From: Acidimicrobiia bacterium
Lineage (GTDB): Bacteria; Actinomycetota; Acidimicrobiia; Acidimicrobiales; CATQHL01
Assembly: GCA_021296415.1 (NCBI GenBank)
Contig: JAGWAL010000028.1
Coordinates: 1 to 39,933, forward strand
Reading direction: 5' to 3'
DNA: 39,933 nucleotides
Shown: positions 7,518 through 24,424 of the stretch, piece after piece
Position numbering within the stretch: the first letter of the stretch is position 1
How the letters are laid out: each line of letters starts with the position of its first letter
Notes under the pieces: model-generated
Told to the model about the DNA's origin: nothing
Seen by the model: only the letters and a program-made list of their open reading frames with translations
The model's database searches: none
Program-made: the position numbers and the translations under genes

Positions 7518-9496
<1,979 letters not shown>

Positions 9497-13348: not shown

Positions 13349-14173
13349 TCACAGGGCATTGTCGTAGAGCAGGATCGTCACGAAGGTCAGCGACTCCAGC
13401 GACGCCGCCGGCTGCACGGAGAGGACCTGATTGAGCCCCGGATCCACCTCCACCTCGGCCACGAGGCCGACCGGTATGTCGGGGGGATAGACGCTGCGGT
13501 CGATCCCACTGGTCGTCATGAGCATCCCGACGGCGACCGGCGTCGTGATGTCGATACCCTCGCTGACCACCAGCGGCTGGCCGCGACCCGTCCCCCGGGC
13601 GATGGCCACCGCCTCGCCCCCCACCAGGCGGACCCCCAACTCGAACTCCGGATCGCTGATCAACCGGATGCGTGAGCGGCCCGGGGCGACATCGACGACA
13701 CGGCCCACGAGTCCGGCACTGGTGACGGCGGGCATGCCCACCTTCACCCCCGCCGAGGAGCCCTTGTCGACATCCACCGTGAACCCGGGAAAGTTGCCGA
13801 GCTGGCGAACGACCCGCGCCGCCGTCGAGGGAATGTCGGTCACGTACTGAATCTGGGCTTGGGCCAGATACTCCTGCAGGACCACGGTGGCGTTGGCGTT
13901 GGCGAGGTCCCGGCCGCGTTCGATCTCCAGCTCTGTACGCAGCCGCTCGTTCTCGCGCTTGAGGTCGTCGTATCCCGTTACGGAGTCCCAGGCGTCACCC
14001 AGCGGACCTCCGGCCCGCCGCGCGCCCGACACCACGGGGTCCAGGGCGGCTTCGGCGGCGCTCTTCACCCGCTCGAACGGGCCGACGTTGCGGACGTCGA
14101 GGGTGACGAGTGTGACCGTGACGAGGACGAGGATGACGAGCGTCAGGCGGGAGCGGCCTGTGCGGCTGGCCAC
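13349..14173 (-). CDS. mreC: Rod shape-determining protein MreC
   Basis: A 274-residue protein with a GTG start at 14171-14173. It has a short basic N-terminus, one membrane anchor (LTLVILVLVTVTLVTLDV), then a coiled coil (YDDLKRENERLRTELEIERGRD, about residues 68-90), and a beta-rich C-terminal half typical of MreC (VDKGSSAGVKVGMPAVTSAGLVGRV, then RIRLISDPEF). MreC lies in the periplasmic or wall space, dimerises through the coiled coil and activates PBP2. It follows mreB by about 40 bases. The final stretch (LTFVTILLYDNAL) is a fitting end for the family. Confidence 0.95.
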   Translation of the reverse strand: MASRTGRSRLTLVILVLVTVTLVTLDVRNVGPFERVKSAAEAALDPVVSGARRAGGPLGDAWDSVTGYDDLKRENERLRTELEIERGRDLANANATVVLQEYLAQAQIQYVTDIPSTAARVVRQLGNFPGFTVDVDKGSSAGVKVGMPAVTSAGLVGRVVDVAPGRSRIRLISDPEFELGVRLVGGEAVAIARGTGRGQPLVVSEGIDITTPVAVGMLMTTSGIDRSVYPPDIPVGLVAEVEVDPGLNQVLSVQPAASLESLTFVTILLYDNAL

Positions 14174-14212
14174 GACTGCGGGGACCGCTCCCCTATGCGA
14201 TCGGCCGGCTAC

Positions 14213-15235
14213 TCAGCGACCGGCGAATGCAGCACGCCTCTCAGTGGAATACCCCGACCCGTACGCCACGACGTACTGAGGGTTCTTCACGCGGTTGACC
14301 TTGATTGCGGTCTCCGCCGCCAAACGTTCTGCGAGGCCGAGCAGACGGGAGCCGCCACCGGCGAGGTGTATCCCGCTCTCCATGATGTCGGCCGTCAGCT
14401 CCGGCGGTGCGGCGTCGAGAGTCGCCTGGACCCCTGCGATGACCTCGTTGAGCGGCTCGTCCACGGCCTCGCGCAGTTCGATCGTGTTGATGCTGACACT
14501 CTTGGGCAGCCCGGTCACCAGATCCCGCCCGGGGATCTGAATGAGCATCTCCTCGGCCAGGGGCCATGCCGAGGTGTACTTCACCTTGATCTGCTCGGTG
14601 GTCTGCTCGCCCACGCCGAGGCTGTACTCCTTACGGATGTAGTCGCTGATGGTCTGATCGAAGTCGTCACCGGCGACCCGCACCGAGCGGCTCACGACGA
14701 TGCCGCCGAGCGAGATGACGGCGACTTCGGTCGTCCCCCCGCCGACGTCCACGATCATGCTCCCGGAGGGTTCCTGCACGGCGACACCGGCGCCGATCGC
14801 CGCCGCCATGGGCTCCTCGATGATGAAGACCGGCCGGCGCGCCCCGGCGAATTCGGCGACCTCCTGGACCGCCCGCTGCTCCACCGGGGTGATCCCGGAG
14901 GGCACGCAGATGACCATCCGCGGCTTGGCGAAGCGGTTGCTGTGCACCTGCTGGATGAAGTAGCGCAGCATCTTCTCGCAGACACCGAAGTCGGCGATGA
15001 CGCCTTCCTTCAGCGGGCGCACGGTGCGGATGTTGGCGGGCGTCCGGCCGATCATCTCCTTGGCATTGCGACCGACCGCCAGGAGCCGATCCGTGCGCGC
15101 GTCGAGGGCGGCAACGCTGGGTTCCTCCAGCACGACGCCCTCGCCACGGACGTACACGATCGTCGTGGCGGTCCCCAGATCCACCGCGATACCCCGGCCG
15201 ACGGCGCTGCTGATGTTGTTACGCACTCGTGGCAT
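14213..15235 (-). CDS. mreB: Actin-like rod shape-determining protein MreB
   Basis: A 340-residue bacterial actin. The ATP-binding motifs are clear: phosphate 1 (GRGIAVDLGTATTIVYVRG), connect 1 and phosphate 2 (GSMIVDVGGGTTEVAVISLGG), and the adenosine motif (IHLAGGGSRLLGLAERLA). PEEP-like IIEEPMAAAIGAG is also typical. MreB polymers guide the elongasome along the inner membrane. It heads the mreBCD-mrdA-rodA run and has a good sigma-70-type promoter about 60 bases upstream. The ATG (15233-15235) has no obvious Shine-Dalgarno; the bases before it read TAGCCACC. Confidence 0.97.
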   Translation of the reverse strand: MPRVRNNISSAVGRGIAVDLGTATTIVYVRGEGVVLEEPSVAALDARTDRLLAVGRNAKEMIGRTPANIRTVRPLKEGVIADFGVCEKMLRYFIQQVHSNRFAKPRMVICVPSGITPVEQRAVQEVAEFAGARRPVFIIEEPMAAAIGAGVAVQEPSGSMIVDVGGGTTEVAVISLGGIVVSRSVRVAGDDFDQTISDYIRKEYSLGVGEQTTEQIKVKYTSAWPLAEEMLIQIPGRDLVTGLPKSVSINTIELREAVDEPLNEVIAGVQATLDAAPPELTADIMESGIHLAGGGSRLLGLAERLAAETAIKVNRVKNPQYVVAYGSGYSTERRAAFAGR

Positions 15236-15325: not shown

Positions 15326-15370
15326 ATGCCACCGCCTTCCTGCATCGTTTGCCCCCTGCGTCGTTTCGGG

Positions 15371-15444
15371 TGGGCCGTGAGGGACTTGAACCCCCGACCC
15401 CTTGCGCGTCATGCAAGTGCTCTTGCCAACTGAGCTAACGGCCC
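15371..15444 (-). tRNA. tRNA-Val (GAC)
   Basis: The 74-base cloverleaf folds cleanly: acceptor GGGCCGT/ACGGCCC, D stem GCTC/GAGC, anticodon stem CTTGC/GCAAG with loop ATGACGC (anticodon GAC, reading GUC and GUU), and T arm with TTCAAGT and one G-T pair. The discriminator is A. No CCA is encoded. It is the last (3'-most) of three tRNA genes on this strand. Confidence 0.93.
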
Positions 15445-15503
15445 CGCCGGCAGACTATCGCGGTGCCGCCACGGCTCGTCGACTCGTCGCCGGGAGGCTT
15501 GTG

Positions 15504-15578
15504 AGCATCGGGCGGGATTCGAACCCGCGATAAGACGGCTTTGCAGGCCGCTCCCTTCGTCCGCTCGGGCACCGATGC
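15504..15578 (-). tRNA. tRNA-Cys (GCA)
   Basis: The acceptor GCATCGG/CCGATGC pairs perfectly. The D stem is CCC/GGG, the anticodon stem GCGGC/GCCGT with loop CTGCAAA (anticodon GCA), and the T arm GCGGG-TTCGAAT-CCCGC is perfect. The discriminator base is U, the known identity element for cysteinyl-tRNA synthetase. No CCA is encoded. Confidence 0.93.
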
Positions 15579-15644
15579 AGATTGTGGCTTCGGAGGCACG
15601 TGCTGCGGTACGAGGTTTGCCCGCCCTGCCTCCGCGAGCCTGCG

Positions 15645-15717
15645 AGCGGGCGACCGGGCTCGAACCGGCGACCTTCACCTTGGCAAGGTGGCGCTCTACC
15701 AACTGAGCTACGGGGAC
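15645..15717 (-). tRNA. tRNA-Gly (GCC) with a mismatched acceptor stem
   Basis: The body is a standard glycine tRNA: D arm GCTC/GAGC, anticodon loop TTGCCAA (anticodon GCC), T arm GCCGG-TTCGAGC-CCGGT, and 3' acceptor strand CGCCCGC with discriminator U. The 5' acceptor strand reads GTCCCCG, where GCGGGCG is needed; this gives three C:C mismatches (3:70, 4:69, 5:68) and one U:G. The 5' end plus D loop look borrowed from another tRNA type. It may be a non-functional chimera, a real but unusual tRNA, or an assembly artefact. The anticodon stem also has an outer C:A pair. Confidence 0.75.
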
Positions 15718-15740: not shown

Positions 15741-16952
15741 TCATCCGAGCGTCGCGGGCGAACGGGCCTTCTCCACGTCCTCGAGGAATTCCGCCAGGAC
15801 GGCCGAGGTGGCCTCGGTCTCGACGAGGAAACCGTCGTGGCCGTGGGGACTCTCCACCAGCACGTACCGGCAGTCCCCGTCCGCCGCCACGACGAGATCG
15901 CGCAGCTCGGTCTGCTGGCGCGGCGGGTAGAGCGCGTCCGAACTGATCGACAGGGTCAGCACGGGGACGGCGATCCGCGCCACCGCCCGCTGCAGGCCGC
16001 CTCGACCGCGGCCGAGGTCGTGGGTGTCCATGGACTTGTTCAGGAGGAGGTACGAGTTGGCGTCGAAGCGCCGCACCAGCTTCTCACCGTGGTAGTCGAG
16101 GTAGCCCTCGACCCCGAAGCGATCCCACAGCCCGAACTGCTCGTTGGGACGGACGAGCGAGCGACCGAAGCGCTCGGCGAAGAGCTCGTCGCTGCGGTAG
16201 GTGATCTGCGCCACGGCCCGGGCGAGCGCCAGGCCCTCGTGGGGCCCCTCGCCCGGCGGTGCTTCGTAGTACTCGCCGCCGCGCCAGCGGGGATCCAGAG
16301 CGATGGCAGCGCGACCCACGGCACTCCAGCCGATCTGCCACGGGCTCGCCGTGCACCCCACGGCGAGGGGAGCGATGGATCGCACCCGCGCCGGGTACAT
16401 CGCGCCCCACTCGAGCGCCTGCATCCCCCCCATGGAGCCGCCGACCACGCAGAGCCACTGCTTCACCTCCAGATGGTCCGCCAGGCGCGCCTGCACCCGC
16501 ACCATGTCCCTGATCGTGACAGGGGGGAACGTCGCCGCCCAGCGGCGTCCGGTCGCCGGATTCGGCGAGGCCGGACCCGTGGTTCCCTGACACCCTCCCA
16601 GCACGTTGGCGCACACCACGAAGTAGCGCCTCACGTCGATGGCCTCGCCGGGGCCCACGACGCCCTGCCACCAGCCGCGCTTGGATTGGTGGGGGTCATA
16701 GGCGTGGGCATCGCCGGTCAGCGCATGACAGATCAGGACGGCGTTGGAGCCGTCGTCGTCCAGGGTCCCCCATGTCTCGTAGGCCACCGTCACGCTGTCG
16801 AGCGAGTCGCCGCTCTCCAGGACGAACGGCCGGCTCGTCCGCAGGGTGAAGAAGCGTCGATCCTCCGGCGGGTCGCCTTCCTGCCAGGCCCCCGAGACGG
16901 GCAGTCCGGCCGCCAGGCGCGGCGGGCGCGGCGCGGCGCGATCCTCAGACAT
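15741..16952 (-). CDS. metX: Homoserine O-acyltransferase (MetX)
   Basis: A 403-residue alpha/beta hydrolase that acylates the hydroxyl of homoserine, normally from acetyl-CoA, to feed methionine synthesis. Family landmarks: VAYETWGTL, CHALTGDAHA, FVVCANVLGGCQGTTGPASPN, the nucleophile elbow VVGGSMGGMQALEW (Ser173), SISSDALYPPRQQ (catalytic Asp) and VESPHGHDGFLVE (catalytic His). The product could be acetyl- or succinyl-homoserine; MetX sequences cannot always be told apart by eye. The ATG overlaps the 3' end of the cyclase-like gene by 8 bases, so the two are probably co-translated. No metY or metB partner lies in the window. The tRNA cluster follows 23 bases downstream. Confidence 0.93.
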   Translation of the reverse strand: MSEDRAAPRPPRLAAGLPVSGAWQEGDPPEDRRFFTLRTSRPFVLESGDSLDSVTVAYETWGTLDDDGSNAVLICHALTGDAHAYDPHQSKRGWWQGVVGPGEAIDVRRYFVVCANVLGGCQGTTGPASPNPATGRRWAATFPPVTIRDMVRVQARLADHLEVKQWLCVVGGSMGGMQALEWGAMYPARVRSIAPLAVGCTASPWQIGWSAVGRAAIALDPRWRGGEYYEAPPGEGPHEGLALARAVAQITYRSDELFAERFGRSLVRPNEQFGLWDRFGVEGYLDYHGEKLVRRFDANSYLLLNKSMDTHDLGRGRGGLQRAVARIAVPVLTLSISSDALYPPRQQTELRDLVVAADGDCRYVLVESPHGHDGFLVETEATSAVLAEFLEDVEKARSPATLG

Positions 16953-23660: not shown

Positions 23661-24424
23661 ATGGTCGCGATGCAACAGGTCTGGCCCCGGTTCGTCCCGG
23701 CGGTGGATCACTTCGAGGTCTACGAGCAGGCGTCGCGCCCGCACTCGCCCGAACGACCGTGGGTGATGCTCTGCATGATCACCAGCGTGGACGGCTCGGT
23801 GAGCGTGCAGGGCCGCTCGGGCCCGCTGGGCGGGCCGGTGGACTGGGCGGTACTCAGCGCCCTGCGCGGCTGCGCCGATGCCATCGTGGTGGGCGCCGGT
23901 ACCGCCCGCAGCGAGGACTACGGGCCGCCGTCGGTGACGGCCGAGGTTCGCGAGCGCCGGCTGGCGCGGGGCCAGGAGGCAGTGCCGCTGCTGGCCGTCG
24001 TGAGCGGCCGGGGCGACCTGGACCCTGCGGCCCGGCTGTTCGCGGGTCCCGAACGCGTGCGGCTCTACCTGGCCGCGGCCGCGCCGGCGAGCCGGCGGGA
24101 GTCCCTCGCCGGGGTGGCCGACGTGCGCACCGCAGGTGACCGGACGGCCGAGGCGGCCGAGGCGGCCGCCATCATCGCCGACCTCGCCGCCGGGGGTCGC
24201 TCTCTCATCCTGCTGGAGGGCGGGCCGCGCCTGAACGCCGCCTTCGCCGCCGCCGACCTGATCGACGAGTTCTGCATCACCCGGTGGCTCCCGGCGGGCC
24301 CGGCATGATCGAAGGCGCCGCGCCGGGGGCCGGGCGTGGCGTTCAACTGGATCGCCTGCTGGTCGCCGACGGCATGACGTTCGCCCGCTACCTGCGACGC
24401 CGCGATCCTCACAAATCGGCCTGA
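23661..24424 (-). other. Note: strand label of the next entry is +; this span holds the frameshifted reductase
   Basis: On the - strand of this span I see no gene except the last 16 bases (24409-24424), where the 3' end of the small membrane protein gene enters tail-to-tail. The other - strand open frames here are shadows of the + strand reductase. The 268 bases 23393-23660 between this gene and nrdJ hold the divergent promoters; no strong motif stands out. Confidence 0.3.
23661..24424 (+). pseudogene. RibD C-terminal-domain (pyrimidine reductase-type) protein, frameshifted
   Basis: GGAGGA lies 5 bases before the ATG at 23661. The first frame (to TGA 24306-24308, 215 residues) shows the RibD reductase or DHFR-like fold: RPWVMLCMITSVDGSVSVQGRSG, DAIVVGAGTARSEDYGPP, and ILLEGGPRLNAAFAAADLIDEFCIT. 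The family's end is missing there but continues in another frame: PVAPGGPGMIEG and then LDRLLVADGMTFARYLRR, closing at TGA 24422-24424. Restoring one base near 24279-24284 (the ACCCGG stretch) joins the two. Relatives are annotated as pyrimidine or dihydrofolate reductase family proteins, sometimes linked to riboflavin synthesis. The lesion is a true mutation, a sequencing error or, less likely, programmed shifting. The 3' end overlaps the next gene tail-to-tail. Confidence 0.8.

Follow-up and report, generated by a model that had tools for sequence, protein, structure and literature searches.

Repeat-induced misassembly is known at conserved loci in short-read metagenome assemblies. The closest intact counterparts of the gene described here are the tRNA-Gly(GCC) genes that lie in a Gly-Cys-Val tRNA cluster in members of the same genus. 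The genomes in this comparison set are uncultured MAGs, one of them labeled Acidimicrobiia. Their tRNA-Gly genes share with our locus the gene order, the neighbors, and every letter from base 7 onward. However, the relatives have GCGGGCG as the 5′ acceptor strand and 11 nt of spacer following a TACACT motif, and the window is shorter by 11 bp. By "the window" we mean the whole stretch of 39,933 nucleotides that was analyzed, which is part of contig C47 of a draft genome (termed G000) of 1.69 Mb in 63 contigs, estimated at 77.5% complete.

The tRNA-Gly(GCC) gene and its intact relatives

In the window, tRNA-Gly(GCC) is the first gene of a Gly-Cys-Val tRNA cluster on the minus strand, with an open reading frame (ORF) on either side of the cluster. 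The features are as follows.

15644..15717, minus strand, tRNA-Gly(GCC) as assembled; bases 1-6 read as leader sequence after an 11-bp loss
15503..15578, minus strand, tRNA-Cys(GCA) of the cluster, intact (ARAGORN and comparison with relatives)
15369..15444, minus strand, tRNA-Val(GAC) of the cluster, intact (ARAGORN and comparison with relatives)
15741-16952, homoserine acetyltransferase-like ORF on one flank of the cluster (named from its translation)
14213..15235, minus strand, mreB-like ORF on the other flank of the cluster (named from its translation)

The deposited letters of the tRNA-Gly gene, read on the minus strand from 15717 to 15644, are GTCCCCGTAGCTCAGTTGGTAGAGCGCCACCTTGCCAAGGTGAAGGTCGCCGGTTCGAGCCCGGTCGCCCGCTC. 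Measured against a functional tRNA-Gly (RF00005), the D, anticodon, and T arms are present with the anticodon GCC, and the seven-base-pair acceptor stem is not. The 5′ strand GTCCCCG faces the 3′ strand CGCCCGC, which places three C:C mismatches at positions 3-5 versus 68-70. Rfam RF00005 matched the gene with 47 bits over model positions 6-65 only, and ARAGORN did not report a tRNA-Gly(GCC) at 15717-15644. The folding energy of the assembled tRNA was −23.2 kcal/mol (z = −0.22), which is not better than that of shuffled sequences; the copy from one relative gave −34.7 kcal/mol (z = −2.17). An earlier note on this DNA had described an unpaired acceptor stem with three C:C mismatches. Given the mismatched letters, the ARAGORN miss, the partial Rfam score, and the poor fold, that observation therefore stands, with the exception of its claim that the D loop is longer than usual. 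The D loop is ordinary, because the gene from base 7 on is letter for letter the same in seven relatives.

These seven relatives carry the whole tRNA cluster (six belong to the same genus and one to the same family), and all of them have an intact 5′ strand, GCGGGCG. When the upstream flank was included in the alignment, we found that TACACTGTCCCC in the window runs directly into GTAGC where three relatives read TACACTGTCGCCGACTTGCGGGCGTAGC, leaving an 11-bp gap.

15712..15713, minus strand, deletion junction; the relatives have 11 additional bp here, comprising part of the leader and the acceptor 5′ strand (alignment)

Across this gap, the window flank TACACTGTC...CGTAGC aligns to the relatives' own tRNA-Gly leader, so GTCCCC is the promoter-proximal leader of the gene itself, drawn up against tRNA base 7, and not part of another tRNA. 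The suggestion that the 5′ end is the start of a different tRNA also found no match: the 25-mer at the gene start, GTCCCCGTAGCTCAGTTGGTAGAGC, occurs once in its own genome and is absent from every other genome among 397 of the order. A scan of GTDB contigs for the intact leader and stem returned three relatives (GenBank MAGs, one labeled Acidimicrobiia); a separate scan for the broken form gave no match in this collection, which may omit the window's own record.

Identity runs of 79 nt and losses across the draft genome

We compared the draft genome with its relatives over selected stretches, with 184 kb aligned to one relative, G007. Over these 184 kb, well-flanked losses of 7 to 60 bp numbered 15 in G000 versus 2 in G007. 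The lengths of the perfect-identity runs between the two genomes peaked sharply at one value: nine runs were exactly 79 nt long, and any neighboring length from 74 to 86 nt had at most three. Six of the nine 79-nt runs stopped where G000 has lost 7 bp or more, compared with 6 of 146 among the other runs of at least 40 nt (Fisher p = 4e-6). The remaining three ended in tRNA-Ser(TGA), in tRNA-Ser(CGA) (both damaged), and at the physical end of contig C27, which thus stops exactly 79 nt into shared sequence. The run at tRNA-Gly is one of the six, with the 11-bp loss directly after it.

15634..15712, no strand assigned, 79-nt run identical to G003, G005, and G007 that stops precisely where the deletion junction lies (identity runs)

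Of the losses that border runs of at least 40 nt, 10 lay to the right of the run as the contig is oriented and two to its left. In G007, none of the losses in the aligned 184 kb borders an identity run of at least 40 nt. A shared run of 78 nt, which lies inside tRNA-Ala, forms the beginning of contig C36. Shared sequence of fixed length next to the losses is the pattern of a k-mer artifact, and a run length that stays the same irrespective of gene type points to a de Bruijn assembly whose k-mer or overlap length was about 79. We know of no mutation process that gives a fixed 79-nt distance. This length is meaningless to a biological process and natural for an assembler's k-mer.

Similar losses were seen at other tRNA genes of the draft. 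In tRNA-Thr(GGT) (8439-8517 of the stretch G000:C6:22000-41999, and G000:C6:30753-30808), about 21 bp of the leader and 5′ acceptor strand are gone. This loss adjoins a 79-nt run identical to relatives. According to the tRNA inventory of the draft, tRNA-Asp(GTC) is missing 20 bp on the 3′ side, and tRNA-Ser(TGA) no longer has its 5′ stem. The 5′ part is lost from tRNA-Leu(CAG) and probably also from tRNA-Ser(GCT), while tRNA-Ser(CGA) has lost about 15 bp internally, and the 3′ end of tRNA-Tyr(GTA) is altered after an 80-nt identical run.

Two tRNA genes of the draft have irregular second copies. In a duplicated tRNA-Arg(CCG), a scaffold gap of 5 Ns (1060-1064 of G000:C61:8000-10200) leaves two overlapping contig ends side by side, and the duplication at this scaffold joint is false. 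A degenerate second tRNA-Lys(TTT) with several substitutions lies beside the intact gene (about 1128-1200 of G000:C58:29500-31900); it is possibly a pseudogene or another assembly product.

Protein-coding genes carry losses as well. A 17-bp loss breaks the rho gene (named from its translation) into two frames, which correspond to residues 1-551 and 558-649 of the relative's open frame. The loss lies around 6419 of G000:C61:12001-30244, after a 79-nt identical run, and the 92 C-terminal residues that are left match the relative at 100% identity. Losses therefore fall in genes that are not normally dispensable, namely rho and several damaged tRNAs that occur only once in G007. In the mreB-like ORF of the window, a 17-bp loss at ~14246 shifts the frame of the last residues (the relatives end SLEEFESLRGVLHSPVAE), which is probably the same artifact as in tRNA-Gly. 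A further loss in the window probably has this origin, too.

24285..24286, no strand assigned, 10 bp lost in comparison with G003 and G007, following 61 nt of identity (alignment)

The losses at mreB, at C47:24285, and in parts of C38 do not have a clean 79-nt run to the compared relatives; at mreB, the second mismatch comes at 80 nt. Positions 14165-14245 of the window, which take in the last part of the mreB-like ORF (3′) and ~40 bp beyond it, have one mismatch in ~80 nt to several genus members, compared with ~83% identity around them. This stretch may represent a conserved element, or else sequence that was exchanged during assembly. The draft has silent losses of ~10-21 bp at several tRNA genes, and frameshifts in rho and at the mreB 3′ end. 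A mutation confined to tRNA genes was considered and ruled out by the like losses in rho, the mreB end, and other coding stretches.

Origin of the broken acceptor stem

From these sequence comparisons, we believe that the broken acceptor stem of tRNA-Gly is almost certainly an assembly artifact, in which the joining of contigs within stretches common to co-occurring species led to a loss of bases. Mis-assembly at repeated tRNA sequence, which the earlier note had listed among its possibilities, is strongly supported by the intact relatives, the losses at other tRNAs and rho, and the 79-nt signature. In the living organism, the Gly-Cys-Val cluster very probably contains a normal tRNA-Gly(GCC). 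The mechanism that we propose draws on general knowledge of de Bruijn assembly. Where related species in the same sample have every letter of the tRNA and the adjoining flank in common, the de Bruijn graph would branch, as at tRNA-Gly. Contigs would stop roughly one k-mer (79 nt) inside this shared sequence, and each flanking contig would carry k bases of it. If the join kept the first contig whole and trimmed the overlap from the second, the bases past k would vanish. At tRNA-Gly, 11 bp (part of the leader and the acceptor 5′ strand) would be dropped, and the leader GTCCCC would take the place of GCGGGC. The shared stretch would then be 79 + 11 = 90 nt and would end in the leader, near the point where the window and the relatives diverge. 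We infer the k of 79, the co-occurrence of related species in the sample, and the exact joining step.

A real 11-bp deletion at a CG microhomology could have inactivated tRNA-Gly(GCC), and its function would then fall to a second copy in the ~22% of the genome that the draft lacks or to tRNA-Gly(TCC) through wobble. A 2-bp microhomology can be placed at the junction, tRNA-Gly(TCC) is present in the draft genome, and the draft is incomplete. However, G007, which is 96% complete with a full inventory, has one Gly(GCC) gene among 45 tRNAs, and independent losses at several other tRNAs and rho would need to have arisen alongside it, with their junctions linked to the 79-nt length. We consider a real deletion very improbable. 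The idea of a decayed copy is very unlikely, since several tRNA genes and rho show like losses and most of these go with the 79-nt shared length. It is highly improbable, too, that the losses are real and that several tRNA genes of this lineage, each without one side of the acceptor stem, are completed or bypassed by a novel mechanism.

There is hardly any chance that tRNA-Gly is expressed without its 5′ strand and repaired after transcription by a Thg1-like 3′-5′ polymerase or other tRNA editing. In the assembled sequence, the −10-like TACACT is so near that a transcript would start at about tRNA base 7, and 5′ losses are common to several tRNA genes. However, what is missing from Asp and Ser(CGA) is on the 3′ side or internal, protein genes are also affected, and the Thg1 family (PF04446) had no match in 20 genomes, comprising G000 (77.5% complete) and 19 others of the order, while the control, Methanosarcina acetivorans, was matched. 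A chimera formed by recombination with another tRNA gene starting GTCCCCG, as the earlier note proposed, would fit with GTCCCCGTAGCTC being superficially like a tRNA 5′ end. It is contradicted by the odd 5′ bases aligning to tRNA-Gly's own leader and by the change being an 11-bp loss, and we regard it as extremely unlikely. No tRNA with this start turned up when 397 genomes of the order were searched for the pattern, or in the inventories of tRNAs for G000 and G007, and the idea of a donor was rejected.

Comparison with known misassembly

As an assembly artifact, the broken tRNA-Gly stem would not be a real feature and would have no bearing on tRNA biology. The draft genome is instead a warning of silent losses of 10-21 bp at conserved stretches, so its missing tRNAs and frameshifts should not be taken as gene loss. 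An excess of one exact identity-run length at losses can serve as a simple test for similar damage in other drafts and requires no reads. Our literature search listed no paper that seemed to address this exact artifact. As in known repeat-induced misassembly, breaks or wrong joins fall at sequence common to co-occurring genomes, and run lengths pile up at one k-mer. In contrast to the known cases, the joins here drop 10-21 bp silently, with neither Ns nor a contig end, so the gene looks mutated.
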